Positions 13,566 through 64,000 of a DNA stretch of 64,000 nucleotides are shown here, piece after piece. The position numbers and the translations under genes were made by a program. The notes beneath the pieces were generated by a model. That model did not search any database. It was not told where the DNA came from and worked only from the letters and a program-made list of their open reading frames with translations. Source of the stretch: Piscirickettsiaceae bacterium (GTDB taxonomy: Bacteria; Pseudomonadota; Gammaproteobacteria; Nitrosococcales; Methylophagaceae); NCBI GenBank assembly GCA_013215805.1, contig JABSQM010000005.1, positions 1-64,000 of the forward strand, in the 5' to 3' direction. How positions within the stretch are numbered: the first letter of the stretch is position 1; each line of letters starts with the position of its first letter.

Positions 13566-13883
13566 AAGTTAGGAGATAATACCATACTGTTCGTTATAAA
13601 GATCTATTAATTATGAGTAAGTAATTTTCTTAATTGTTCAATATTCGATGTAATCGGTGATTAGGTTAGTAGGTTGGTCAATATGCGTTTATCCATATTT
13701 GTATCAATTTTTATTAGGATGGCCAATTGTATCATTTTTAGAAGTGTCATTCATACGTCTATAATAGACTATAGGTTTATATTTATAATATGGTGGTTAT
13801 CATTAATATTTTTACTATATCTTTGAATAAGATAATTTTTATTAGATATATACCTATCAGATAATTTGATTACGATAACTTAA
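13566..13883. other. Gene-free stretch between pcnB and a fossil insertion sequence
   Basis: The DNA is AT-rich, with stops in all six frames. I read the minus strand for a lost neighbour of pcnB and recognised nothing. Confidence 0.5.
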
Positions 13884-14702
13884 GGTTCTGCCGCAGAATT
13901 ATAGATGATGTATATATGTTTGTTTTACAAGTACAACCATCTTGCGAATGTATAAAATTATTCGAAGGTAGTTATTTCTTTAGTATCCGTTTTCTTGAGT
14001 TTAATCATTGGCCATATTTACTTGCCATGGAAGATAACTTCAATGCCTTCAATTTATTTCGGGTATCGCGCTTGACACGTTCTTATTTCACCCAATGGCT
14101 AACTTTATGCAATAATATTATCTAAATATTTAACGTCCAGTATTCTAATTAAATACACATAATGCGCCCTGATAACCACGGTTGTACATTCATTGCATTG
14201 ATCTCCGCATGAACTTGTATTACTTCCATCAATGATTATATTATCTTGTAAGCCATTTTTAGCAATAGACTTATTGAGAAAGGTCTTAGTCGTTTTATCA
14301 TCACACTTTAAGCTTAAATGATAGTCGATAATATTTCCAGGTATTTATTTATGGCATGATAATGGCAAAACCACTCACCTTCTATCCTCATATAGGTTTT
14401 ATTCATATGTCATGTAAAAGATACTGTTTTCTTCCCAAGTCCTAAGTTATGCTCTGAGATGGATGTAAATTTAATGACCCAACGATCAATTGTCGCATGA
14501 TCAACCCTCACACTGCGTTCCAATTAAATATTTTCTATTTTTTTGGGGGAGGGGCTCATCGTATAGGCGAGGTATTGACGTATTATTTTTAAGATAATTT
14601 CATATGCAAAATTACTGTTTTTAAACATAGTCATTAATTTATGGATGTAATATGTGATCTGACTGTTTTACATAGTTTACGACGAATATTTGCAATAGAA
14701 CC
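13884..14702 (-). mobile_element. Fossil IS6-family-like insertion sequence, copy A
   Basis: This is a decayed copy of an 800-820 bp element also found at 26866-27566 and 39898-40701. The left end starts ggttctgccgcagaatta and the right end closes tttgcaatagaacc, an imperfect inverted repeat with the GGTTCTG-type tips of the IS6 family. Read on the minus strand across many frame breaks, it gives transposase pieces: VDHATIDRWVIKF, then HNLGLGKKTVSF, then NKTYMRIEGEW in place of the usual MDETYIKVKG. Near the end comes a KGIEAMHMIKKGQ-like tail (IEGIEVIF, MIKLKK). The first catalytic aspartate has become Asn. No reading frame survives, so it is not active. Confidence 0.85.
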
Positions 14703-15824
14703 ATAAACATTCTACATTATCGATGTAATAGACTATTACATAGTCATATTGAACATGATGTCCCTGCCCAATATGTTTCTCATAGCTTTTAATAGAATGA
14801 GTTATAGGTGTAGACCAAACCATAAAGACAAGATTTTCCATACAATTGATGGACATTCTCACAAACTTCTAAGTCATCATAACCTATCTTGATTTAAATT
14901 AAGCTAATACAGAGATTACTTTAGTATAAAAAATATAGTCAGCCTTCCTCTTTACTGAAGGAATATAATAAATATGTCATCTTTCTTAAAAACATCATGA
15001 ATATTAATATCTTCCATTCTGGTGTTAAGGCGATTATTAAAATCACTCTATAATAACTATCGTCGATGCATGAATAATTGAATTAAAATTTTTTACATAT
15101 ATAGGTAAGTTATTTAAACATTAGGTATAAGACTAGTGGAGTCCTACAAATTATAAATCATAGATATTTATTATGTACCGGATGGTTCACACATTGCAAT
15201 TGACTCACAACCAAAACAATTTACCAGGTATCAAAATTATCTTCATAATTAATAATTACATAAAATATTTCTATGGTTCCTTGATTTTAACGTAATATTA
15301 TTCATATCAGATATATTATTTGATATGCGAACTAAAGATAGGAAAGGTGATAAGTTAACGATAACTGACGAACGGAAACCACTTGAATGTAATGTGACAA
15401 AATATAGGATCTGCATAACATTGAAGTAGACCTTAAATTCGGAATACGGGCAAAACTAGTAAAAACTGATATGTACGACCTTCAAATAAAAAATGAAGAC
15501 TAGAACTCTCATGTTAATTTTTTTATCAATAAAACAATGTGTCTTAGTAATATATATTTTAAATATATTATCGCTAGAAATAAATACTAAATATGGATAA
15601 AATTATCGCTCAAAAGGTGTAAGATGAAGCCGTAAATAAGTCGCATTGGTGAAATAACAAATTCATGATGATATTTTAGGTTATTGTATACATACCTATA
15701 TATTCGAATATAATTTGAATAAAATGGACAATTATTATCAATTAATATTGCTTAATGGAATATGTTATAGACACATGTTTATTCGGTGAATCATCTAAAA
15801 ATAATAGTGGAACCACATTTACAC
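14703..15824. other. Gene-free stretch upstream of proS
   Basis: About 1.1 kb of AT-rich DNA with frequent stops in every frame. I recognised no gene remnant, RNA gene or repeat. The promoter of proS must lie near the right end. A minus-strand open frame at 14677-14862 overlaps the end of the fossil element and has no family likeness. Confidence 0.5.
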
Positions 15825-17570: not shown

Positions 17571-19113
17571 ATGACAACCATTAAGGCAAATGATTTGATT
17601 GATAGTATCGCTGATAGCTTACAGTTTATATCCTATTATCATTCTAAATATTTTATACAATCTATGGGATAGGATTATCTTAAGGAACAGGCACCTGCAG
17701 CTAAAGATGCCATAGCCCAAATATTGGTTAACTCACTGTGTGCAGAAAACAAACGTCCTATGTGTCAAGATACAGGCATCGTCAATGCATTTATCAAGGT
17801 CGGGATGGATGTTTGTTGGGCAGGAGCACAAAGTCTTAATGATATGGTTAATGAGGGAGTACGGCGCGCTCACCTATCTCATGAAAATAAATTAAGAGCA
17901 TCTATTATTGCGAATACTATTGAAGAGCGCTGCGATACGGGTGATAATGCTTCAGCTATTATTTATACTGAACTTGTACTAGGCAATAAAGTTGAGATCA
18001 ATATTGCTGCTAAAGGTGGTGGAATCGAAAATAAAGCTACATTCAGCGTACTGAACCCCAATGATAATTTAGTTGATTGGATATTAAATGTTGTGCGAAA
18101 AATGGGTGCCGGATGGTGCCCACCTGGAATTATGAGTATGGTACAGCAGAAAAACAATGTTAATGGCTAAAGAAGTCCTAATAGGACCGCCTAACATTCA
18201 AGATTTAATGGAACTTGGGGTTGTAACTGCCACAGAAAAATTACGATTAGAACTCTATGAGAAGATAAATCATCTAGATATTGGTGTTCAAGTTTTGGGC
18301 GGCTTAATAACAGTTTTAGATGTGAAAGTGTCAGGGTATGCCACCCCATGCCACCCCATGCCACCCCATGCCACCCCCGCTTCTTCGTTGCCAGCTGCTA
18401 TCATTCCTAATTGTGCTGCTATCCGCAACATCCATTTTACCTTAGATAGATCAGGTATGGCTCAACTTGAGCGGCCTTTGTTATCAGATTGGCCTGATAT
18501 CATTTGGCAGGTAAGGAGCAATACAAAACATGTAAACTTAGATACTGTCATTCAACAGAATATTAAACAATGGAAAATAGGTGAAACCTTATTATTATCA
18601 GGGCACTTGCTGACTGGTCGTGATGCAGCTCACAAACGTATCGCTGATTTATTTGCCAAGGGCGGCTTATTACCTGAAGGGCTGGATTCTACTAATCGCT
18701 TCATATATTATGTTGGACCTGTTGATCCAGTTAAAGACGAAGTAGTGGGACCTTCAGGTCCAACTACTTCTACAAGCATGGATAAATTTACATAAATGAT
18801 GCTAATAAAGACTAATTTATTGGGCATGATCGGTAAGGCAGAACGTGGTTCTATCGCAATTAAATCTATTAAGAAATATAGCTCAGTTTATTTGATTGCC
18901 GTTGGTGGCTCCGCTTACCTAATCTCAAAAGCTATCAAATCAGCCAAAATAATTGCTTTTAAAGATATCGGTATGGAGGCTGTACGTGAATTTTATGTTG
19001 AAGACATGCCAGTTACTGTGGCCGTAGACAGTCTGGGTAAGTCAATACATACGATGGGTTCAAAAAAATGGAGTAAAATTACACATATTCCAGATTCGTC
19101 CGTACATATCTAA
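17571..19113 (+). pseudogene. fumA: Class I fumarate hydratase, broken
   Basis: The whole length of an iron-sulfur class I fumarase can be followed: KANDLIDSIADSLQFISYYH at the start, RPMCQDTGIVNAF, AAKGGGIENKA, MGAGWCPPGI, GRDAAHKRIADLFAKGG, YYVGPVDPVKDE and AVGGSAYLISKAIK to the end. It is broken by an in-frame TAG at 17670, a frameshift near 18150-18157 at the GIGIGG region, and an in-frame TAA at 18793-18795 where the family has Arg after DKFT. A 10-bp tandem repeat (18338-18377) also pads the middle. Three separate lesions make it a pseudogene, though much of the sequence is still close to normal, so the loss looks recent. Confidence 0.95.
18338..18377 (+). repeat. Four tandem copies of atgccacccc inside the fumarase pseudogene
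   Basis: The unit atgccacccc is repeated four times without error (18338-18347, 18348-18357, 18358-18367, 18368-18377). It is GC-rich in an AT-rich setting. Three extra units add 30 bp, so the reading frame is kept. They encode about ten residues (YATPCHPMPPHATP) where the family has a short YPTHAA-like stretch. Confidence 0.97.
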
Positions 19114-21130
19114 CGATATTGGCACTTTTTATTACCCCACATATAATAGCGCCGTTATCTAGGTTGGTAGCATGTTCTTTTCCTACATTGTACTGCGTTC
19201 TGTTGCTACAAAGTTATTCGAGTCACCGGAGAAATTTATGTTGTGGTTGCAAGTCTTTAAATACTTTCTTTCTATGGGTTTAGGCTATCATTAAATATTT
19301 TGTTAATAAGTAGTTACCTATCCAGCTATTGACCCCCCTGGGAATATAAGCAACGCTGAATCCCATGTTTATATTAGTCTCATTCATGATGTTATCTTTT
19401 ATGTATTTATTTTTGGTTATTATTAAAGTTTAAATTTAGCTATTATAACAAGTAGCTGGGTTTCAGAAGATACAATATCTAAATAAAATATGTCGGATTA
19501 TATGCATTAATGTAACACTCGGACTTTCAGTGATTGCTATCTCCGTTAGCGGGAGTTATTTTTATATAGATATTATTTTGTGATTTAACTCCCTATAAAA
19601 TTGGACAATTTATTTTATATCAATTTCAACATAGCTTTATTTCTAGGTGTTAATACTAATTTGAAGTATCAATTATAATAATGCAGAGTTAGAGATACCA
19701 ATATTATTAATGTAATATTGATAATTTTCAGTGAACGTTCGACAAATTAGACATGGGTCCTAATTTAATAACATGATATAAACATTCCTGCCATAGGACG
19801 ATAGGATACCTATTGTACTTATTCTACATTTTGATATGAAATTGGCCTGATTCATCAATGTTCCAAGAAATAAAAATATATAATGATTACATATAAATTT
19901 ATTCGTTAGTGGATTGATGGGATGTTTGATAAACTTAAATGCAATTTTACAAAATTTAATTACTGTATGAGCCATCTAAATTTAGGTTATATGCTTATAA
20001 TTAGGAGATGTAATAAGGTGAAAGTACTGATTATTAATGAGAATAAAACTGGAGATACCTTAATTCATACTAATTTAGCACGAAATAATATAGATATCCT
20101 AAATATTTAAATGATAATTGGAAGTGAAAGTCATAATGATATCTATAATTAGGAGCTTAAATCAAATTGACAGTTTCCGTAAATGTTCTAAATTACTATA
20201 CGGCAGAATTATTTGTGCTATGAATAAATGGTACATTGCATATAAAATCAATTATAACCATACTTTTTAGTACAAAAAATACAATATATTCCATCTACAA
20301 AACATTATTTATCTATTAATACCTTAATATGGGTATTTTAAAGTGCGAATACTAAAAATGAAGATTCAGTACTTGATATTCATGATAGCTAAATCATTCA
20401 TTATGAATCCTCTGTAGCCACACCCTGAAATTATAAGATAACCTGATTTTATATTCAATTGAGGGGGGGGGCAATTGATTATTAATCACCATTTGTATGA
20501 TTATTAAACATATATAATATGTAAAAATCATGGCCCGTACAGGTATGCAACATTTAGCACCTAGATCAGATAATTATATAAAATATATTTATATACAATT
20601 AAAAATACTATTTATTAATTTTTATAGACCAATGTTGCTAATTTCTCCCTACTTTTCATAGGACACTAGCAGTGGATCATATAAAACAATATTCCTGTTT
20701 TTAGTAATTATACTGCCTATATATTTTCCCAAAAGAAGCTGGAATAAAAATATGTAATATCTTTATTATTATTTAATTATTCGACAAATAGTAAAATCGT
20801 CAAGCAGGGCGATACTTTATATGCCAATTTTTGTAGCAATGCAAAAATTGTATTTAGCTGCCAGTTAATTATGGATGTACAAATTTTAAAGTATATATCT
20901 TCACTAAAAATGACGTGATAACATTAATTTGCAAAGACTGCATAGTTTCTCTAAGGTTGAGATTGGTTATGTACAATAGTAAAACTTTTGCAAAATACCT
21001 AAGGTAGAGACTGTTTTTATTTGTCTACACTTGATGCAGCAGGTATTAATAAAAATGACTATACAATGGAAAATTGCGATTCGGTGATATAGAATGCGCA
21101 CTTAATTTAACAGAGCATGAAGGATATACT
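19114..21130. other. Two-kilobase gene-free stretch before glyA
   Basis: AT-rich and stop-filled. A 43-residue open frame at about 19172-19303 (MFFSYIVLRSVATKLFESPE onward) has a protein-like composition but no family that I recognise; it could be the relic of a gene end. A run of nine G lies at about 20463-20471. An open frame at 19922-20110 on the plus strand overlaps one on the minus strand, and neither resembles a known protein. The end of the stretch holds the glyA ribosome binding site. Confidence 0.5.
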
Positions 21131-26847: not shown

Positions 26848-26865
26848 TACCACAATAATACTTAT

Positions 26866-27566
26866 AGTTTTGTCGCACACTTCGTCGTTAATATGTAATA
26901 TCATTAGTCCGCAGATCACATCAATAAATTAATTGCTGTGTTTAAAGGCAGTGATGCTCCATATCTGTTGAGGTTGCCTATCAATCATACGTTATTACTA
27001 CTTCGCCTATAAGTTCAGTCTTCGAGAAATAGAGGAAATTTAATTGTAATACGGTGCAAAGGTCCGATTATGCAACAATTAATCGTTGAGTCATTAAATG
27101 TACATCCATCTTGGAGTATAGATTAAGGCTTAAGACTTGAGAAAAGACCAGTATTCTATTCATTGCGCATGGATGAAACCTATATAAAATAAAAGATAAG
27201 TGGTTTTATTAATATCGTGCCATCGATAAATTTCTAAATATCATCGATTACCATCCTAGTTTAAAGAGTGATGGAAAATCGGCCAAAGCTTTTCTTAATA
27301 AGTATATCTTTCAAAATGAGCTTGCCAGATATAATAGTCATTAATAGGGGTAGCATAAATTATGCGATATTTCATGCAATGAATGTACAGCTGTGGTTAT
27401 CAGGGCTTTTTATGTTGTCTTTAATTGAAATATTGATGGACTATGATTAAATACAAGCAGATAGATATTGGAGGAACAATTACTTTTGAACAATTTTATG
27501 CACTCGCATGACGTCTTTGTTTGCAGCTCAGTACATCTACCTTATCTATAATTTCTCGACAGAACC
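26866..27566 (+). mobile_element. Fossil IS6-family-like insertion sequence, copy C, internally deleted
   Basis: Plus-strand copy of the element at 13884-14702 and 39898-40701. The right end ctcgacagaacc (27555-27566) is the inverted form of the ggttct ends of the other copies. The left end agttttgtcgcacacttcgtcg (26866 on) resembles the right tip of copy A. Transposase pieces read across frames: YFAYKFSLREIEEI, then INRWVI, then MDETYIK, then RAIDKFLNIIDYHPSLKSDG, then AKAFLNKYIFQNELA, then MNVQLWLSGLFML. Some 150 bp near the 3' part are missing compared with copy B, so it is about 100 bp shorter. It starts 19 bp after lpxB. Confidence 0.83.
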
Positions 27567-28728
27567 TTATTTGTTAATTAGAGTATTATTATTCATGATT
27601 ATTGCCTTATCTTAAACATAAGATCAACAGTAAGATGGGGCATAGAAACTTTGATGGCTAAAAGTTAGGCGAACCATATCAATGGTGGGAATATCATCAC
27701 TTATTTTGCTAATATCGGTTGTAAGTTTACAGAAATTATTTTCTTTGGGTCAGTTCATGGGTATTTCAATAGTCTGTGTAAATTCATCACCATGATTTTC
27801 ATATCGTTCTATTTAAATGAGTTATTTTAAGTATCTTTATCGGCCTTATAGTATTTTTTCATTGATATATTTAAATATATGGTAAGTTGAAGCTTGCAGT
27901 ACTCAAGATATTTATACTGTATTACTTATTGGAAATTATCTGTAAGCGGTACTTATATCATGAGTTCTTCTGAAGGTTTTATATTTATTATAGTTTTAGG
28001 ATCATTAAGATCAGTACAAATACATAGATTAAAATCCATGCATATGAACAAATTTATTAACAAAGGTATGTGAGTTGTTAATTGATTATTTTGCTCCCGG
28101 AGTGATGTTTTTTGTAGATGACAGATCTCTACTCAAAATTAGTCGCAATCTATTACAATTTATTTTTATAATAACTGATCAATTAATGGTCTTAAATTAT
28201 GCAAATAAGAATTTTATCCTATATTTAGTCGATAGATATATAAATATTCAAATTATAATGACAAATTATGGCTATCTTTAATGTATCTGATTACAAGTCT
28301 ATGATTATTATCACGAAATTTATTCAAGAACAGGGAGTGAGATCTTTGTGACTTAAATCTATTATTTTCATATAATAAGTAAGGACATCATTGCCATCAA
28401 TACAATTTTTACGTTAAAGTGCTAGTTTCATGATTCATGATAATGACATCGTTATTATAAATTGCAATCACTATATGAGAGTTAAAATAACTAATCTGAA
28501 AAAGAGATATGAAGATCGAATATGAATGGTGTAGAGTGAATCTAAGTATCCGAAATATTTGCAATTATCTATTTATCAATTTTAGTATTTAAACGTGTAT
28601 TGTTCAATTAAAATAGTACTTATAATCTATTATAATTAAGTTAAAGTTGTTAAATTAAATTGGACTTAATAATTATATTAATTTTTTACCTAAATATTTA
28701 TGGGTGAGTATATGGTATTGACCCGATA
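27567..28728. other. Gene-free stretch between the fossil element and feoB
   Basis: AT-rich and stop-filled. A plus-strand open frame at 28075-28281 (68 codons) has a plausible amino acid mix but no family likeness that I can name. feoB ends on the opposite strand at 28729, and I see no terminator hairpin for it. Confidence 0.45.
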
Positions 28729-34478: not shown

Positions 34479-34756
34479 TTGTCAAAGCTGAAGTTGCAAG
34501 AACCTCCTACATCTCAGGTTTTAATGCTAAATGATGATTGTACATCCGATGAATGTTGTGATGGAAGTATTAGAATGATTTTTGTTATGTATCGTGGGCG
34601 AGCTACACAAAGGATGTTAAAGTTACACACTAAAGGACAGGGGTTATGCGGTATTTTTATTTTTTTTAAATGTCTGGAACTAATTTAAAATAGGCAAATA
34701 TCTATGCTCATAAATATGGTCATCCATTGCAATGTGCGATGAATCAGGGATGGTAA
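34479..34756 (+). pseudogene. clpS: ClpS adaptor, frameshifted
   Basis: The first 60 codons (TTG start) read as ClpS: VLMLNDDCTSDE for the usual VVLLNDDYTPME, RATQRMLKLHTKGQGLCGIF for a KATQIMLHVHTEGKGVCGVF-like stretch. After a T-rich run at about 34659-34671 the frame shifts. The C-terminus is then found in another frame as ANIYAHKYGHPLQCAMNQ, ending at 34756. ClpS hands N-degron proteins to ClpAP. The gene directly downstream, clpA, is also dead. Confidence 0.9.
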
Positions 34757-34801
34757 CTTTCGATCATCAGAGGGTGGGGAGGTTATAAGGTATCAACCAA
34801 A

Positions 34802-36907
34802 ATATCAATTAAAGAACTTGAACACACGTTAAGTTGGGAATTTAATGATGTTCGTAACGCTCTCATTGATTTTTACTGTCGAGTATTTATTATTAGCATC
34901 TCTTGAAGATATTCAAGTATTGTGGTGTAAAAGATTGTGCAGTTGATATGGGTAATTTACGTCAATATTTCAATGATTTTTATCTAATGGATTGTCTGCA
35001 TTGTCTGGTGCTATTAAGCGTAAAATTCGGCCGACTTTATCATTGCAGAAAATATTACAACGTATTGTGATGTATGTACAATCTTTAGTTGGCAATGAAG
35101 TCATAGGTGTTTGATATATTAGTATTTATTTTTCCGGAGCAGCAAGCACGAGCGCTTATTTTTTAAAGCAGGATATTACGCGTTTGGATGTGGTTAATTC
35201 CATTAGCTACATTGATATTAATAATATGATTGAGATTGATAATACTTCAACCAAATTAAGATTATCTGAAGATAGGGAACGTTCATTAGACTTGTATCTG
35301 ACCAATCTAAATGTATTAGAGATGGAAGGAAATTTAAATCCATTAATTGGGCGTACCTATAAGATTGAGCATACTTTACAGATCTTGTGTTGACGTAGAA
35401 AAATCATCCGTTATTTGTAGATGAAACAGTAGTCTGCAGGACTGCATCAGTAGAGGGATTGGATAAACGAATTGTTGATGGGTATGCTCCTGCAATTCTA
35501 GAAAATTATTTTATTCATTCTTTGGATATCGGTGCCTTAGTTGCAGACACAAAATATTACGGTGATTTTGAGAAACTTTTGAAAGCATCATTAGGTACAA
35601 TCAAGCATAAAAACAATGCCATTTCATCTATTGATGAAATTCATACGGCAATTGGCGCTGATTCAGTAGGTGATAGCTCCATGAATTCTGCTAATCTACT
35701 GAAGCTATTTTTGGTTAGTGGTGATCTTAAATATATGGGATCAACCATTTTCCAGGAATATAGTTGTATTTTTTGAGTATGACAATGCTTTGGCTAGATG
35801 TTTTCAGAAAATTCATATACTGGAACTATCAGTAGTAGATACTATACAGTATATTGGGAAGATTTAAAGTCCAGCTTAAAAAGATATCAGGATGTGATGC
35901 ATACTAATGCCGCTTTAGTTCCAGTAGCAGAGTCGTCTGAACTATATATTAATAATAGTTTTTACCTGATAAGACAATTCATGCATTAGATGAGGTGGGT
36001 GCAACGCAATGTGTTTTATCTGAATATAAACGCGAAAAATTATTGGTATCAGGGACGTGCAAGTTATCATAGCTAAAATAGCCCGTATTTCAGCAACGAC
36101 TGTAAGTATTGTTGATAAAGATAGCTTTCGTAATCTGGAGGAGAATCTAAGGTTCGTGGTTTGCGGTCAAGACAGCGTAATCTCAGCACTAATTCCATCG
36201 ATTAAGATGTCTGCATCAGACTTATGGCATCTAAAAAATCTAATGGTTGCATTTTTCTTTGTAGGTCCCACTGGTGTTGGTGAAACTAAGGTATCACGTC
36301 AATTGGCGCATAATTTTAGTGTTGAGCTCATTATTTTTGACATGTCGGAGTATACATACGGTTTCATGTTCAATTAGTGTGCTGCCAGTCCGTATTAGTT
36401 ATGACCAAGGCAAATTATTGATAGAAACTATTACTAAGCATTCATATTCCGTCTTATTATTGGATTAAGTGGTACTAGCAATGCCTTGGTCCAGGAGATG
36501 GGTCTCTTATTGATGGGATTCACCAAGTAAGATTGTCATATGGATGGTTTGTAATCTATTAATCAATATTTTACTCCTGAATTTGGGAATAGGCTTGATG
36601 GTATTATTAAATTTAAGATATTGTCTTTATAAGCTGTATTATGTGTAGTAAATAAGGTGGTGTTTGATCTTGCAATGTTATTTGAATACAAGGATGTAAC
36701 GTTAAAATTTGATGATGAAGCATATCAATGATTGGCCTAATCATTGATACGACGAGTATATATCGGGGTTGATAAATAGCCAGGCTTGTGAGATAATATA
36801 TTAAACGTCCCTTGGCAAATGAATTTCTATTTGGTAAATTAGCCAACGGCTGACACGTAGACGTCATATTTTGGAATAGAGTATTGGTATTAAATTTGAC
36901 TGTCTAA
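34802..36907 (+). pseudogene. clpA: ClpA chaperone subunit, multiply broken
   Basis: Almost the entire ClpA protein can be traced in pieces: ISIKELEHTL at the start (with ATA in place of ATG), VTRLDVVN-like ITRLDVVNSISYID, then NPLIGRTYKIEHTLQILC, then SLDIGALVADTKYYGDFEKL, then IDEIHTAIGAD, then AKIARISATTV, then PTGVGETKVSRQLA where Walker A Lys has become Glu. It ends with PLANEFLFGKLANG at 36809-36850. At least ten stops and shifts separate the pieces. The gene is non-functional. With clpS also gone, the ClpAP/ClpS branch of protein turnover has been lost; clpP is not in view. Confidence 0.93.
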
Positions 36908-38213
36908 TTGACGTCTACTTATATTTATTTTTTAAATTTAAATCAGGGCACTTCTTAAATTATCAATTTATGAATGATATGATTATTATCTATTCTAGGT
37001 TGAATTTTATATAACAATTATTCATTGTGGAAAAATTTATTATATATCTACAAATTAAAGCTATGGGTTATTTTATGGCATCAAATTTTTATATCTAGCA
37101 AAATGATATGGATATTCATAGAATATGGCTCTCTGTCTAGAATGAAATTTTAATTTTCGTGCAGTAAAATATATCTCATAACATGGTTCCTTTCGAGTAA
37201 TATAAAATATACGATATTTTAAGTGAAGGAGGAATTATAATTAAATAATTGCAATTCCTCATTTCCTAAATATATATTAGGTCGTGCTTTATAATAATTA
37301 TACCGATTCTAAATTAGAATAATATATTGACCTAGATTAATAGCCTAAGTTAAATATTTAAGTGGATGCCTTCACCTATAAAAGCACATGAACCTATGTT
37401 TAAGCAGGTTGTCATTGCGTACTAATACGTAATTGATATCAGCGGTCATTTTTTAAAGGATACAAGGATATAGATTTGTATCCATTGCAATAAATTCGCA
37501 ACCAAAATTTATATAGATGTTCTAGAAAATAATTTGATATTAGCCTTAATAAATATTGAAAATACTCTATGGGTTCTCAGATATTATAGAGATATTTAAT
37601 TTGCTGAATTAGAGAATGTTGAAATCAGGATAAGGATAATATTATATATTTTGGTTAGAGTGAGTTCCTCACGCAGTATGTTGCGTCATTGTGGTTATTA
37701 TGAAAAGGGGGTAAATAGTTGTTATGGAGTTAACGTATTTATTGCGTGGCAGGAATGGTTAATATTACTCATGTTATCTAGAGTATGATATTTTTATATG
37801 CACTCCTACATCATTTCATATGTATTTCCTATTGCTTTCTGCTTAATAAGGCATACAAACTCATCACAGTACTAATATATTAAAAGCAATATAAGTGAGA
37901 AAATATTTTGTGTATTACAGGGGTAGCCCTCGATTGAGACCAGGATTAACATATATAGAGAAATAGATAGGTGAGAGATAAATATATTAGGAAGACAATT
38001 CATCAAATGTATTCTGACACATTTACATAATCACATTATACCTTAATTAGTCTATATTTTATTTAGGGGAATACACTTGTATTAATATGAGATAATGATA
38101 TCTCTAGATGAGGAGATATCACATTATGGTATATCCTTCATTATCCAAATATATCTAATACGTGGTTATCGGTTATTTCTTAATATTTACTGTAATTAAG
38201 TGTGGATGTAAAT
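36908..38213. other. Gene-free stretch between the clpA and mqo pseudogenes
   Basis: About 1.3 kb of AT-rich DNA with stops in every frame. I looked for icd- or cspD-like pieces, which are neighbours of clpA in relatives, and recognised none. Confidence 0.5.
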
Positions 38214-49851: not shown

Positions 49852-52800
49852 CATTGAGGGTTTCACTAATTTTTATATGGAAGTTGGTCCCTGGTTCATA
49901 ACATATATTATGGAACCATCACATGGGTAATGTGGTAATGTAATGTCGTGGGAGAATACTATTTATACATGAGATACTGTATATTACCGTAATAGTTTTG
50001 CCAATAATTCTTTATAGTTATGAGCGTATTACTAGAATACTTATTTAGATAATTTATCTATACATCACTATCTTATTTGCAATTTTATTTCATTGAGTAG
50101 ATGTTGCTTTATTACCTTCATCCTAAAATTGGTTATTCGCTATTTAAGGTTGAACAGCTAAATAGATTATAAAATAAATAGATATCTCTTCTCTGCGAAC
50201 TTAATTTTGCAGCTATTTTTCTCATAATGTGCCGTTTTTTTAAAAGATGATTGAAGGATGAGATAACACAACTTTTAGGTATTTGCTGCATTGTAATTCA
50301 ATTTTATTCGCAAGATTAAGAAAATTTTGAGGTTGCCTTAAGTCGTAGTGATTGTAATAAGATCATTATGCAATTTACTTTGTTGAGTCTCTGGCTATAA
50401 CATTAAATCTACAAAATTCTGTAAGAAAAATGCATGACATTTTCAGAGGTATGTAATTGAAATTGTTTTTTATTTTTGTGCATAACTTTTGGGTACCACC
50501 TGTCATAATATTTTAGATTATCAGCTTTCAACGTTTGATAGCAGGAAGATATGTATAATATTATTCTTATTACATCGCCATTCTAGGATAACTCAAGCAA
50601 TTTTCTAAGGGTCTAAATTTGGCGATACCAGAATATATTTTGAGAGGATCAGCTAGTTCTATGCCATCTATAAGAATTTTTCTGTCATTAATTTTCATCT
50701 TAATATAGTGCTAGATCGGGTGATCAGTAATATTCACTAGTATTTGATTTGTTGTTTTGGTGCTGAGATCAATGAGGGTACTGAAGGTTGCATGACTTAA
50801 TCCCCGAGATATGGTGCATTTCGGTTGTTGCATTATTTTTAATTTCGATGATGCATGTTTATAGAGGAGTTATGGTTCTATCCGTGCCCTCCTATTATAC
50901 TTGTAGTGCCTGTAAGCTCTTACCGATTTGATGAATTGTGCCGCGGACTGCCATAGCTACGACAAGATCCACTTGTACATGTTGTGCACAGTCAGAATAT
51001 TGAATTCTAAACCCATGATATTCATGTCGTTATTCTGCTGATTTGTAGTCTTGAGCAAATATATATGCTTAATCCCTTCCCTAATATTAGTCAAGGTAGT
51101 GCGCATTCTAAATGATAAGTTTGCCTGTATAATACTTTAATTACTGTTTATTTGATCCTATTTTATACAAAACATGAAAAGTACGATTGCACTTAAAGAA
51201 AGCGCAATAGATTGCATGGAGTCAATTTTATTTGGATGCGCGGCGTATTAATAATGGTTTAACGTTTTTCCATATACTTATATATCAAGTCGAAATTTGC
51301 CTCATAATAGGGATGTGCGTGTGGCTGGTATTGTTTATCTATTTACCACTTTAGATAGTAGAACTAGTTTCGGTGAATCTAAAATAATGGCGTTGTCTTA
51401 TTAAAAATGACAATTCTTCGAAATATATTGGTGGTGCTGCCGATTAATAATTTCTTAGAATTAATGTTGATATTCACCTTTATATTTTCTTTAATAAGCC
51501 ACTAGAAAATATTAAATATGGAGCGCGTCTTAACAACGCAATTAATTTTTAGTCATTTATAAGAAACTAAAGTAATAAACTTGCGTATCTCGCGCCATGA
51601 TCAGAGTCGTCATGTCTTGAAAGTTCATGTGGTTTTTCAGAACGATGAGTTGTTAAAATAGTAGATTCTTTCGTTCTTGGATATCACCATATTAAAGTGT
51701 GGCACCCATTGCTAATAATATTGTTGTCATGTGTGTGAGGGCACTGCACGACCTGGGTCTCTTGACTTGACTTAAGGCTGTTATACAGCATTAATTTTTA
51801 TAAATTTTAGTTATTAAGCTATTTTAAATGAAATTAAGGGATACGGTTAATCTGAAATTTTTGCTAAAGAGTCTATGAAAGCTCTGAAGAAAAATTATTA
51901 TGAAAGGTCTAAAAAGATCTTTATTACAGTACCACCAATATTATTTGGATATAAATATTTTTCGTTGAACCAGTGACCAATGAACAAAGTAATGTTTTGC
52001 TAGATATGAATATACTTAATTCAAAATATACCGTACATGAGATTCCTTCAAGTTAATTTCGCTTCTGGAGTGCTGTTGCATATAAGATGTATTTATATTG
52101 ATGATAAGGATAGGCAGTATAGCCATGTGGGATATCAGATTCATTTTAACCGTTTCTTTATCAATGTCTTGTTATTTCATTTCGTGGTATTTTGGCAGGG
52201 AATGCACAGGCGCTGCAGTAAATACATTAAAAAATATTTCTTATGACCTAATTAAATGAATTAAGTAAACTGTTTGCCATGCAATCTCAGTCATCATTGT
52301 AATGGATAGAGTATATCTGGCTGATCATTTCGGAGGTCATCATGATGGTTATATGTAAAGCGAATAATTTGAACTATTTCTCTGATAAAATTCATTGAGA
52401 CGTCTGAAAGAATGTCTCTGTGCGTCGGACTGAGAGGTAGATCTGTAGATTGGCAAATAATATACGGTTTATAGAGTAGTTTATTGGGATAATAGTCCAT
52501 GGCATTATATCTGTACCGAAGAGGATGATGAATATACTGTGTTTAAAGCTGTTGAGCTTTTTAATGTATCAGATAATGGATTATAATCATATTGGAAATT
52601 ATCAGAAGTATCTAAAGAAGTTGAAACACCAGAAATTGTATTTTAGTAATGAGCTAAAGGGCCCTTTTTCTATGATATTCCTTATAGAGGATGATCCAAA
52701 ATCTATGGAACTATTTAAAATATATCGTCAATCTATGGATCAGGAATGAATAAGAGTAGTAATAGACTATATCGTTACCCATTACTAATTTTTCTGTCAA

Positions 52801-53693
52801 TAATATATTGCACATGCTGTCGTAATATATATGTGAGGTTATTCTAATGTTTGAAGATCTGCCCAATCTTGAAAGATGCGAATGCGTTTATATTGATATC
52901 GTGGCTTCTCAGCCTTTCCTTTTTTAATTATTATCAATGCCAATTTCGTGATTGATGAATTCAGTGGTTGTGAAATATCATCAAAAGGACTAGAAGAATA
53001 GCGTATATATATTAAATGTGACCTAGAAGAGATGAACTAATAAATATTAAAGGATCTATTTGATAGCTGACTCCTAAGTGACTCGAAATTTTGACACTTT
53101 CTGAGCAAGAGGCTTTGCCCTTCTTGGTGAGCATATTAGATTTTGATGTTAGTCTGTTTCTTTAGGTATACTTATTTGGAATCCACGACAGACCAGATAA
53201 GCAGTAGGATTATAATATATTTGAGGAGTGGGTCGATATATTGACAGATATAAAATAGGCATAAAACTTTCAAAAGGCTGGCAAACAGTTTACAGCAACC
53301 ATGACTATATCCTTGTCTACAGTACTCTTCCCATCCTCAAATATTAATATCTATACTTAAATTTTTAATGGTTTAATCAGGATGTCGACATGACTTATAA
53401 TTCGGTACAGTAATGATATTTTCATTATAAAGACATTACATTTGTAGAAGTATGCAAGGTTGGTGGTAGTATTTTTCCAGGTTGAGCAATTAAGTATAAT
53501 CTATGTATTATAATTCTATTAAAGCCAGTAAAACTTTAATTTGAATCAAATGTTAAAAAGATATTACTAAATTTATTTCAGTATGCGCTGGGTGTAAATA
53601 ATCAGAATTCCACTCAGTATGAATCTTACAGGTATAACAGTACAGGGTTGTATATGAAGCTATCCAAGCCTGAGATGTAGATAGTCCTTAAAT
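49852..53693. other. 3.8-kb stretch without intact genes
   Basis: The largest gap in the window. The plus strand has scattered short frames with protein-like composition: PHNRDVRVAGIVYLFTTLDS at about 51304-51363, and 52037-52246 and 52525-52749. None resembles a family strongly enough to name. In Betaproteobacteria fbp often follows pepN, but I could not find FBPase motifs. An inverted repeat 'tggttc' / 'gaacca' lies at 49892-49918, just after pepN, without a T tract. The region probably contains one or two long-dead genes. Confidence 0.45.
49892..49918 (+). repeat. Inverted repeat downstream of pepN
   Basis: tggttcataa ... ttatggaacca forms a stem of six plus four pairs with one bulged G. 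No T tract follows, so it is at best a weak terminator or an mRNA end-protecting hairpin. Confidence 0.45.
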
Positions 53694-58108: not shown

Positions 58109-58137
58109 GGTAGATTCCAATAAGCAAGGACATATTA

Positions 58138-58533
58138 TCAAAATGATAATTAATGCTTAATCATTCCTTATTCAATTCTTAATTGAATGTTGATGGCGCC
58201 ATCACCAGAATATTCTGCTTTAGCTCCAGCGTAGTTTGTAGAACGTTCAATCGTTAATCCATTTCATCTGTCAGCTATCATTCCTTGATCCACTGATGAC
58301 TCCAATTTATTAATGTAATGAAAATTAGAAAAGTTTATTATCCTATTTTTAAGTGTCACTTCTGTAGAAGTTATCTCAGATGGTAATACTATTCCTATCT
58401 TATATCCCGGATCACGTAATGAATTGGAGTGATTTATTTGTATCGATTCATCAGTTTTTTTCATTAACAACGAGTTCGGCACTGCAGTTGCTTTCTTTTT
58501 TGTATTTAATTTCAGGTGAGTCAATCGAGTCAC
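58138..58533 (-). pseudogene. Unrecognised gene interrupted by one in-frame stop
   Basis: On the minus strand an 89-codon frame with a GTG start (58533) ends at a TGA (58264-58266). In the same frame it continues for another 31 codons with protein-like text: NGLTIERSTNYAGAKAEYSG and DGAINIQLRIE, then a true stop near 58170. The TGA could be a TGG (Trp) mutated by one base. I do not recognise the family; the alternating polar and aliphatic pattern suggests beta strands. No other gene here uses TGA as an amino acid, and ribB and metG end with TGA, so recoding is unlikely. The far end is not certain. Confidence 0.5.
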
Positions 58534-58936
58534 TAAAAGACAAATCTAACGTATCTTTAATCTACATCTATATAAAATATCTTTGAAAAAGATCTAAAAG
58601 AAGAAAACAGAAGTATCATACAAATAATGTTTTTCATAACAATCTATCCTTGATAGGATATAGCATATCATATCATTAATTATGCCAAAGGAAACTTCTT
58701 ATACAAATTATATTTTCATGCTATTACCAGATCTTATAATTCATTATAATTTTGCTAGGGTTGTTGTTATGTACAAGGTTTAAATAACTATTATTAAAAT
58801 ATTCTGTATTACTCCATTTAAATTTTGATGTGACGTTGTTCTATGCATATTAAAAATATTATATATATATTTCATCCGAAGTGAATTTTAATTATTAATG
58901 ATATACAAAGATATTATTTTACATTACCCTTTGTAG
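58534..58936. other. Gene-free stretch upstream of the thi operon leader
   Basis: About 400 bp of AT-rich DNA without a recognisable gene. The promoter of the thiamine operon should lie in its right part, but I could not define it. Confidence 0.45.
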
Positions 58937-59021
58937 TACTTGTTAGGGTGTCATTGAATGGGCTTGGGTGAGATGTAATGGCTGATTTAATTTTGATAAA
59001 GGATATGATTCTTTGCGAGTA
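58937..59021 (+). promoter_or_regulatory. Candidate degenerate TPP riboswitch (THI element)
   Basis: About 125 bp before the thiC start. The order of elements follows the thi box: P1 strand tacttg (58937-58942), agggtgtc (for AGGGGUGC), gggtgaga (for GGCUGAGA), then aattttgataaaggatatga and ttctttgcg (for the AACCUGAU..GGAUAAU..CCAGCG block), closed by cgagta (59016-59021), which pairs fully with tacttg. Several conserved bases have changed and helix P2 looks weak, so it may have lost ligand binding. The evidence is placement, order of blocks and the P1 pairing. Confidence 0.5.
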
Positions 59022-59066
59022 ATAGGTAATAATGATATTTGCTAATTTAATAATAATTCAAGGTGA

Positions 59067-60953
<1,887 letters not shown>

Positions 60954-60969
60954 GGTCTAGATTTAATAT

Positions 60970-62049
60970 ATGAAACGGTATTTGGTTATAGGGAGTGGAC
61001 TAATTGGGAGACTTCTATCTTGGCGTTTATTGCAAGCTGGTCATACCGTTAATATTTTATCTAGTGATGATAAAATGGGTACAGATAGTGCTGGTTATAT
61101 TGCCGCTGCGATGATCGCCCCAGCAACTGAGGCCATTAGTGGAGGAGCAAAAGTACGAGAGATTGGTTTACGGTCTTTGCAATTATGGTCTCATTGGCTT
61201 GAGGAATTACCCGAAACAGTTTTTTATCAAAATAATGGTACCTTAGTTGTGGCCCATTCTAGTGATAAAGTCGAGCTAGATCGCTATCAACGACGAGCGG
61301 TACATGTTCTTGATAAGGATGTTTTTGAAAAAATTAATCAGCAACAGTTATTTCATTTAGAATCAGACTTGGCTGATAATTTTGATGAAGCCATGCTTTT
61401 TAAGCAGGAAGCTTGCTTAGATAATAGGCAGTTGTTTCGTATATTGGGTACTTTATTAAGTGAACATTGTAATTGGCAGCAATGTAAACCAATTAAAACT
61501 TTGTCAGATAAGATTATCAAAACATTTATAAAGCCATCTTCGGATTTATCTGAAGATAGCCTTGATGCTGTGGTCGATTGTCGAGGAAATGGCGCGATAT
61601 TCGACCTTCCTGATCTACGTGGTGTTCGTGGTGAGATAATTAGTGTTCATGCACCTGAGGTATCATTTAAGCATTCAATTAGATTAATGCACCCACGTTA
61701 TCCATTTTATCTGGTACCACGACCGAATAACAAATATGTATTAGGTGCAACGGTGATTGAAAGTAATGACCGCTCACCAGTAAGCATAAGATCTGGACTA
61801 GAGTTAATGTCGGCATTGTATAGTTTACATAGAGGTTTTGCTGAGGCTAGAATTATAGAGATGTCTTCACATTGTCGTCCTAGTCTGACGAATAATATGC
61901 CAACTATTAAACGTAATAGTTGGGGTTATCATTTAAATGGATTTTATCGTCATGGCTACCTGTTCGGGCCAGCTATTATTGCTGACTTTTTAAATATATT
62001 GGATGACCAAACCGAAAAAATTATGTTTAGCGAATATTATGACTTGTAA
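60970..62049 (+). CDS. thiO: Glycine oxidase ThiO
   Basis: ThiO oxidises glycine to the iminoacetate used for the thiazole ring; it takes the place of the radical SAM enzyme ThiH. The 359-residue FAD protein has the N-terminal nucleotide-binding VIGSGLIGRLLSWRL, the AAMIAPATEA stretch, VDCRGNGA, LRGVRGEIISV, PFYLVPRPNNKYVLGAT, and a C-terminal HGYLFGPAI. All match the DadA/ThiO family. It starts 16 bp after thiC. The substrate glycine is provided by GlyA. ThiO needs oxygen, which suggests that the cell is not anaerobic (inference). Confidence 0.95.
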   Translation: MKRYLVIGSGLIGRLLSWRLLQAGHTVNILSSDDKMGTDSAGYIAAAMIAPATEAISGGAKVREIGLRSLQLWSHWLEELPETVFYQNNGTLVVAHSSDKVELDRYQRRAVHVLDKDVFEKINQQQLFHLESDLADNFDEAMLFKQEACLDNRQLFRILGTLLSEHCNWQQCKPIKTLSDKIIKTFIKPSSDLSEDSLDAVVDCRGNGAIFDLPDLRGVRGEIISVHAPEVSFKHSIRLMHPRYPFYLVPRPNNKYVLGATVIESNDRSPVSIRSGLELMSALYSLHRGFAEARIIEMSSHCRPSLTNNMPTIKRNSWGYHLNGFYRHGYLFGPAIIADFLNILDDQTEKIMFSEYYDL

Positions 62050-62053
62050 TGTG

Positions 62054-62257
62054 ATGACTACTATTAAATTTAACGGTGATGATCTTGATATTGAAACTGG
62101 GATTAATATAGTGTGCTTTCTACATCAACAGAACATTACCGATGGACAATTTATAGTAGTAATTAACAAGGAAATGGTACCTAAGTCACAATATGGAAAC
62201 GTAGTTCTTGCCAAAGGAGATGCCTTAGACATAATATCGCCAATCACTGGAGGTTAA
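62054..62257 (+). CDS. thiS: Sulfur carrier protein ThiS
   Basis: ThiS is a ubiquitin-fold protein whose C-terminal thiocarboxylate brings sulfur to the thiazole. The 67-residue protein ends in ISPITGG, with the required Gly-Gly tail. I chose the ATG at 62054, 5 bp after the thiO stop; a longer frame overlapping thiO (from 62003) lacks family likeness. The adenylating enzyme ThiF is not in the window, so its work must be done by a protein encoded elsewhere, such as MoeB. Confidence 0.95.
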
Positions 62258-62258
62258 G

Positions 62259-63059
62259 ATGCAGCAAGCTTCGTCGTGGCAAGTATATGGCCAAGTATTA
62301 CAAAGTCGTTTATTTATGGGTACTGCTTTATACTCATCACCACAAGTGATGATGGATGCTTTCAAAGCATCCGGCTCACAGGTTATTACTTTATCCTTAC
62401 GTCGGCAAACACCGACCGAGGATAATAATGGTGCTAGATTCTGGAAATTAATTGAATCTTTAAATGGTCACTTATTGCCCAATACTGCCGGTTGTTACAG
62501 CAGTGAAGAAGCAGTTAAAATTGCGCATTTAGCACGGGAGTTATTCCAGACTAATTGGGTGAAGTTGGAAGTTTTAGGCGATAGCTATAATTTGCAACCG
62601 GATCCATTTGCATTGCTAGAAGCAACTAAAACGCTCGTAGCCGATGGGTTTAAGATTTTTCCTTACTGTACCGATGATCTGGTACTTTGCCAGAAATTAG
62701 CTGATCTAGGCTGCGAGGTACTCATGCCATGGGGAGCACCTATTGGTACTGGCAGGGGTCTGATTAATATACATGCTTTAAGAATATTGCGTGAACGTTT
62801 GCCAGAATTGACTTTATTGGTAGATGCTGGTATAGGCAAACCTTCTGATGCCGTACAAGCAATGGAGCTAGGTTATGATGGTATTATATTAAATACTGCG
62901 ATAGCAGAAGCTTTAGAACCAGTACAGATGGCCACTGCATTCTCACAAGCTATTAATGCAGGTCGCTTAGCTTATGAATCTGGCTTAATGCCGGAACGTG
63001 AACATGCAAGACCCAGCACACCCTTATTGGATCAGCCAATTTGGCAACAATATGTCTAA
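62259..63059 (+). CDS. thiG: Thiazole synthase ThiG
   Basis: ThiG joins deoxyxylulose phosphate, dehydroglycine and ThiS-borne sulfur into thiazole phosphate. The 266-residue barrel has RLFMGTALY, the Schiff-base lysine Lys102 in [23 protein letters not shown], and [14 protein letters not shown]. All are as in active enzymes. It starts 1 bp after thiS, and its end overlaps thiD by 8 bp. An 'ggagg' site for it lies in the last codons of thiS. Confidence 0.97.
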
Positions 63060-64000
63060 TACATCCAGACCTGCGGTGCTACTAATAGGAGGATTAGACC
63101 CTCAAGGCTGCTCTGGGATAGTAGCAGATATCCAAACAACATCAGCACATGGTTGTCACGGCGTTCCACTTCTTACCTGTTTAACTGAGCAAACTAGTCA
63201 GGGATTAACATCCATAGGTGCATTATCTGAAGATGTATTTATGAGACAATATCAATCTTGTGTGGCTGATTTCGATATTGCTGCAATTAAAATCGGTTTA
63301 ATTTCCAATATCAATATTGCGTATTGTATCAGCAAAATAATAGATCAACATGATGTTCCTGTAGTGTTAGATCCTGTTTTATCTAGTTCATCAGGGGGTA
63401 TTACCTTAAAACATAATGTAAACATTAGGAGATTTATAATTAAAAATCTACTGGTTAAAATAACTTTATTAACTCCTAATCTATCTGAGTTAGCAATTTT
63501 AACTAAATCGGGTAATATCTCCATACATAATATTAGGGCAGCTACGGCTCAGCTAATATCAAAAGGTCTAGCCGTTTGTTTAGTAACAGGAGGACATGCC
63601 AATTCAAAATGGTCAGCTGATTATCTTAATACTCACAACAGTTCCTTCTTCTATTTTTACCATCAAAAATTGGGTAAAGATGTGCGTGGAACTGGTTGTG
63701 TATTAGCATCTAGTATTGCGAGCAACCTTGCATTTCATCATGATATTCGTGATGCAGTGATGTTAGCTAAAGCATATGTGAACCAAGGTATAAAAAAAAT
63801 TTATAGTATGGGATGTCACACATTATTGAAACATGCCATGGTAAAAATAGAGTTAAAGGATCTACCTAAGCTTTGTTACGATCATAATTTAATTGGATCT
63901 CAGTTTAATTTTCCATTATGTCAAAAGCGTTTGGGTATTTATCCTATTGTTGATAGTAGTGACTGGATTAAAAGATTGGTTCAGGAGAATATCAGTACGA
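63052..64000 (+). CDS. thiDE: Fused HMP/HMP-P kinase and thiamine-phosphate synthase (ThiD-ThiE), 3' end off the window
   Basis: The ThiD part phosphorylates HMP and HMP-P. It starts [20 protein letters not shown], then [30 protein letters not shown] and [11 protein letters not shown]. From about residue 290 comes [17 protein letters not shown], the start of a ThiE domain, which couples the pyrimidine and thiazole into thiamine phosphate. The window ends inside ThiE with the frame open. ThiD-ThiE fusions are known. The ATG lies within the end of thiG (8-bp overlap). With thiC, thiO, thiS and thiG it nearly completes the thiamine pathway; dxs, thiF and thiL are not in view. Confidence 0.95.

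Follow-up and report, generated by a model that had tools for sequence, protein, structure and literature searches.

A degenerate TPP riboswitch upstream of thiC

Positions 58939-59026 of the window, the whole 64,000-nt stretch of DNA analysed here, very probably hold a dead TPP riboswitch that decayed by relaxed selection in a shrinking genome. The stretch is homologous to the TPP elements in front of thiC in related genomes, its invariant sites are eroded to the level of a pseudogene, the aptamer fold is no longer near-optimal, and the reading frames of the operon behind it are open. From its sequence and predicted fold we infer that the RNA has lost ligand binding. Since the sensor has decayed while the upstream block, a Shine-Dalgarno site and the reading frames were kept, thiC is most likely expressed without TPP feedback. 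The genome that carries the window (G000) comprises 1.149 Mb in 27 contigs and is rated 100% complete; two genomes of the same genus, G001 and G002, have 2.1 and 2.4 Mb against its 1.15 Mb. The relic and its parts are as follows:

58899..58932, + strand: block upstream of the relic, containing TTTTACATTA; 29 of 34 positions as in the same-genus genome G001
58939..59026, + strand: decayed TPP riboswitch aptamer; 24 thiC loci of the family carry the intact homologue
58939..58943, + strand: 5′ strand of P1, CUUGU; partner 59022-59026, 5/5 pairs formable
58944..58949, + strand: remnant of the 5′ strand of P2; partners inside 58976-58984
58969..58975, + strand: UGAGAUG, the pyrimidine-pocket stretch; every letter as in the relatives by alignment
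58992..59019, + strand: remnant of the P4/P5 arm (UUUG..CGAG; AAGG..UCUU); 8/8 pairs can form and do so in the predicted fold
59022..59026, + strand: 3′ strand of P1, AUAGG, placed by alignment to the family locus L025

A preliminary description of the window had recognised a worn THI element before thiC, placed it at 58937-59021 and closed it with a 6-bp P1 helix. The relic is real, with the homologous stretch running from 58939 to 59026. TACTTG (58937-58942) can indeed pair with CGAGTA (59016-59021), but this is not the homologous helix: by alignment, CGAG at 59016-59019 is the 3′ strand of P4, and P1 corresponds to 58939-58943 and 59022-59026. MAFFT puts the UGAGA block elsewhere; the pairwise placement was preferred because UGAGAUG is then identical letter for letter. 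The aptamer lies 121 nt from the thiC start, and 95-125 nt separate the two in the 24 family loci. The block upstream of the relic resembles the 8 other aligned relatives less than it does G001. It may act as a promoter; a scan for consensus promoters listed none at 58899-58932 and gave a total of 8, compared with 8.8 in shuffled sequence.

Homology to intact elements in related genomes

TPP matches over the cut-off occur in 46 of 58 relatives, in 34/34 other genomes of the same family and nowhere in G000 (counts among the 58 are subject to search filters that miss some weak matches). thiC was found in 41 of the 58; among these 41 genomes, G041, G045, G046 and G054 gave no TPP match and G035 and G052 a weak one. 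Wherever upstream sequence exists in the family, thiC is preceded by an intact TPP element (24/24 loci, L022-L045; a 25th, in G016, is a contig-edge fragment and was left out). In a free-end alignment of window positions 58900-59075 with 9 of the 24 family aptamers, the relic reached a mean score of 160.9. None of 500 dinucleotide shuffles attained this value (91.4 ± 8.3, maximum 124.8), nor did any of 706 other stretches of the window (94.0 ± 10.2, maximum 131.2). A whole-leader profile (nhmmer) matched 58937-58977 at 0.3 bits (E 8.2) and then, in profile order, 59079-59161 at 8.6 bits (E 0.024), each of them weak by itself, and an aptamer-only profile did not list the relic at E ≤ 50. The order of upstream block, relic, hairpin and thiC is that of the relatives. 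Both marks of descent are present: homology at the same locus and a location within the leader of an operon for thiamine biosynthesis (thiC at 59148). A plasmid search with the leader sequence returned no match.

Covariance models, in contrast, do not tell the relic from background. The Rfam TPP model (RF00059) gave no match in the window at its gathering score of 54.3 bits, which the relic does not reach and which the two congeners G001 and G002 exceed (70.9 and 74.0 bits); at E ≤ 10 it gave none in 58109-59200 and none in the whole genome. Five other Rfam families with weak matches near the relic all fell below their own gathering scores and were dismissed. We also built a covariance model, R1, from the 24 family loci. 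It scored the relic at 4.3 bits (58932-59032, E about 1 in 1.1 kb), and an unrelated site nearby at 4.2 bits. Over the 64-kb window the relic was absent among the 14 hits listed; over the whole genome R1 found nothing, an empty result that shows nothing without a positive control. In another family, R1 gave 46.5-49.3 bits in 4 of 5 loci. The score of the relic is at chance level, which the preliminary description had named as grounds for giving up the element; its position and its alignment to the sister genomes nevertheless identify it as a real relic.

Sequence changes and predicted fold of the aptamer

Compared with L025, 52 of 77 aligned positions are identical. The preliminary description was correct that several core bases differ, but this understates the divergence: 25 of the 77 positions are changed (10 C>T, 5 G>A, 4 A>T, 3 A>G, 1 C>G, 1 C>A and 1 T>C, so that C-to-T and G-to-A together account for 15 of the 25), and there are insertions of 5, 2, 2, 1 and 1 nt, at sites that include the flank of P2 and the joint between P2 and P4. 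Half of the strand letters of the P4/P5 arm (8/16) are changed. According to the available text of PMC7824784, the aptamer contacts its ligand through G19, G40, G42, A43, C77 and G78; in our mapping of this numbering, five of these six letters are kept in the relic (G19, G40, G42, A43 and G78) and C77 has become U.

In spite of these changes 19 of the 21 pairs of the aptamer remain drawable. Permuting the changes left 17.1 ± 1.2 pairs when all sites were used (P 0.13) and 17.7 ± 0.9 when paired sites were used (P 0.19). Pair retention is therefore within the range that drift alone would give and is not evidence for selection on structure; the reading of the 19 pairs as a sign of a living RNA was dropped on this ground. 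In the predicted fold, P1 is extended to 58937-58945/59020-59028 and absorbs two former P2 bases, and P4/P5 is extended through joining bases that include 59014 (the C77 equivalent, now U) and 59015 (G78). The P2/P3 arm is replaced, so that of the five-helix aptamer only P1 and P4/P5 are kept. The weakness of P2 noted in the preliminary description was confirmed: 4/5 pairs can be drawn, with a 2-nt bulge, and the helix is missing from the predicted fold. Enforcing the homologous structure on the relic cost 17.8 kcal/mol over the optimum. The same cost is 2.9-6.0 kcal/mol in 22 of the 24 relatives and 11.1 kcal/mol in L034 and L042, where we attribute it to the placement of a gap in P3.

Erosion relative to a pseudogene, a gene and neutral sites

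To put the decay on a scale, sites invariant among relatives were counted in the aptamer, in thiC and in a pseudogene from elsewhere in the window; the three counts use differing sets of relatives and can be compared only roughly. The relic keeps 39 of the 57 aptamer positions that are invariant in the 24 relatives (68%) and has lost 18. The clpA pseudogene keeps 860/1086 (79%) of the first and second codon positions invariant in 6 relatives, a count that excludes 72 further columns gapped in the window, and thiC keeps 978/1029 comparable invariant sites (95%; seven relatives). With bases matched, clpA rates predict that 44.7 ± 3.0 of the 57 aptamer sites would be kept (P(≤39) 0.045) and thiC rates 54.0 ± 1.7, so that the 39 observed place the relic on the side of the pseudogene. 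The worn-out state proposed in the preliminary description is thus supported: loss of invariant sites is at least that of the pseudogene, and the aptamer fold lies far from the optimum. Fourfold sites, which are near saturation, predict 22.0 of the 57 against 39 kept, which argues that the aptamer was under constraint for part of the lineage's history. Two functional RNAs of G000 escape erasure by drift: its RNase P RNA scores 323 bits (332 and 339 in the congeners) and its 5S rRNA 95.3 bits. Since RNase P is normal in the same genome, the switch cannot have been lost through base drift alone.

The thiC leader and the thiamine operon

The features downstream of the relic are listed here:

59079..59096, + strand: leader hairpin TTGTTTGCATTAGCACAA, 16/20 identical to CTTGTTCGCATTAGCGCAAC; relatives have a conserved counterpart; role putative
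59134..59142, + strand: Shine-Dalgarno region, a nine-G run in the window sequence
59148..60953, + strand: thiC, open; NF006763 1020.5 bits (cut-off 650)
60970..62049, + strand: thiO-like FAD oxidase; TIGR02352 206.4 bits, below the cut-off of 250.8
62003..62257, + strand: thiS; TIGR01683 46.2 bits (cut-off 37.45)
62259..63059, + strand: putative thiG; open frame, operon position
63097..64000, + strand: thiD-thiE fusion, lying in an open frame of 510 aa and reaching about 64464 in contig C23

The thiC of the window is 82-86% identical to those of its nine nearest relatives, and the closest named ThiC among the matches listed is that of a Methylophaga sp. MAG (82%); we assign the genome to Methylophagaceae or its vicinity. 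Judged from the starts in relatives, translation would begin at the GTG at 59148. The frame at 62259-63059 we take to be a putative thiG from its position in the operon; an NCBIfam scan of it returned no ThiG model and only a weak TIM match below the cut-off. In the thiD-thiE fusion, PF08543 covers 63097-63813 and PF02581 covers 63955-64464. thiL, located elsewhere in the genome, is open and over its cut-off, as are thiC, thiS and thiD-thiE.

Among the relatives, 21 of the 24 family leaders (L022-L045) have the hairpin as CTTGTTCGC together with GCGCAAC. A CCCC run lies 5′ of the Shine-Dalgarno site in 22 of 24; its counterpart in the window is ATCC. The site itself is AGGGGA in 19 of the 24, AGGGGGA in 3 and AGGGA in 2, and folding predicts it to be mostly paired, which suggests that thiC would be controlled at the level of translation in these genomes. 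Its mean unpaired probability over the 24 relatives was 0.21 when folded freely and 0.16 once part of the aptamer was enforced; in the window the value was 0.34 over six bases. Because this folding did not separate bound from free states, we offer the hairpin and CCCC run only as the likely expression platform of the relatives' leaders. The nine-G run at 59134-59142 of the window is a possible slippage site, and slippage there would alter the spacing to the thiC start codon.

Decay in the surrounding genome

The 32 frames judged intact cover about 56% of the 64-kb window. clpA is a pseudogene, with short open fragments at 35459-35776 and 36057-36377 within roughly 34500-37400. A class I fumarase at 17724-19113 is split over three successive short frames, of which two were tested and both matched fumarase models, and it is apparently a pseudogene as well. 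In a scan for frames of at least 100 aa, 13566-15785, 19114-21073, 26848-28728 and 49852-53693 contained none; such long frame-free stretches are consistent with continuing genome decay. Cobalamin riboswitches are present in 6/6 other genomes searched, and a search of G000 found none. FMN riboswitches gave 0 matches over the cut-off in 7 genomes searched and are uninformative.

Based on these results we propose that the ancestor of this Methylophagaceae-like lineage, like its relatives, carried a standard aptamer at a distance of about 95-125 nt from the thiC start, at which TPP binding presumably reduced expression of the operon. Selection on the sensor would have lapsed as the genome shrank, presumably in a stable niche where repression of the pathway was little needed. 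Base changes and small insertions would then have broken the P2/P3 arm, which holds the pyrimidine pocket, while the upstream block, a Shine-Dalgarno site and the reading frames of the operon were retained.

Alternative explanations

That the likeness to a THI element arose by chance in an unrelated leader is scarcely credible. In favour of it, both the Rfam and the family covariance model score at chance level; yet no shuffle and no other stretch of the window attains the alignment score, and upstream block, relic, hairpin and thiC follow one another as they do in the relatives. It is quite unlikely that the element is a diverged but working switch, an RNA with AU-rich pairs that still folds and binds TPP. 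Most of its pairs are drawable, P1, P4 and P5 are fully formable, partly through two-sided changes, and UGAGAUG is unchanged. Against this, pair retention is no better than under permutation, the homologous fold costs 17.8 kcal/mol relative to the optimum, C77 and invariant letters of the joining regions are gone, and insertions sit beside P2 and in the P2-P4 joint; moreover, erosion is no milder than in the pseudogene, and nothing comparable has happened to RNase P in this genome.

The loss of feedback might also have been favoured rather than tolerated, if the cell makes more thiamine than it needs and supplies it to, say, a host or a partner in its community. The operon and thiL are retained in a 1.15 Mb genome with pseudogenes, no recognisable TPP sensor is left, and the sensor has decayed at least to pseudogene level while the upstream block and the ribosome site, with its nine G, were kept. 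We regard this as unlikely: the cell itself requires thiamine, cobalamin riboswitches have been lost too, as general reduction predicts, and the larger G035 genome of the same order (described below) also has a weak element before thiC, so that such a loss needs no story of supply. Relaxed selection is simpler than thiamine export and, where genes and other riboswitches are being lost from the genome as well, is the simplest cause. The guess in the preliminary description that the organism is a symbiont fits a genome of this size bearing pseudogenes; its host is a conjecture, and so is the export of thiamine. Deep-sea mussels harbour Methylophagaceae symbionts, one with a MAG of 2.17 Mb in the available text of PMC10199937, and a host for G000 is conceivable.

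Comparison with related and other systems

The relic shares with the RF00059 elements before thiC in its congeners (L022 of G001 and L023 of G002) its position, block order, P1 and UGAGAUG, and the leaders share the downstream hairpin and a Shine-Dalgarno site. It differs in that L022 and L023 score 70.9 and 74.0 bits with Rfam, whereas the relic has no match, lacks P2/P3 in its predicted fold and has lost 18/57 invariant letters. In reduced symbiont genomes such as Buchnera, ancestral regulation is mostly lost and the genes remain, with the Shine-Dalgarno sequence among the conserved elements, as far as the available text of PMC3164680 describes it. What sets the present case, known from the genome alone, apart is that one named riboswitch can still be read as a relic beside intact copies in sister genomes. 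Titles and abstract openings in the literature yielded no comparable TPP-riboswitch relic of symbionts, which is no proof of absence.

The relic is ordinary in kind, an instance of gene control lost during genome shrinkage that is well documented by intact sister copies, and it adds little on how TPP riboswitches work. Its interest is that a riboswitch has been caught mid-decay and can be set against intact copies, in two congeners and at 24 family loci, so that the order in which constraint was lost from sensor, platform, upstream block and gene can be read directly. Covariance searches can miss such relics, and riboswitch losses in reduced genomes may therefore be counted as simple absences.

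In three relatives that were inspected (L001, L007 and L013), a second TPP element lies ahead of a TonB-type receptor recognised from the open reading frames, which suggests regulated thiamine uptake. A 481-aa part of the receptor matched nothing in G000, and each of 5 other genomes searched yielded 2-9 matches. In G001 the receptor matches are of 25-26% identity only, so that lacking this receptor is not peculiar to G000, and G001 has a single TPP element and an intact thiC switch. Receptor loss alone therefore does not entail loss of the switch.

G035, whose genome of 2.0 Mb belongs to another family of the same order, also has a weak TPP element directly ahead of its thiC (L048, 3347-3438, minus strand; Rfam 16.2 bits, R1 7.6 bits). 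Like the relic it is a low-scoring TPP element at thiC, but it is less eroded. The rest of this family that was searched (G036-G040) has TPP matches over the cut-off just before thiC in 5/5 genomes. The erosion in G035 is presumably a separate event from that in G000, indicating that TPP elements before thiC have eroded more than once in the order.
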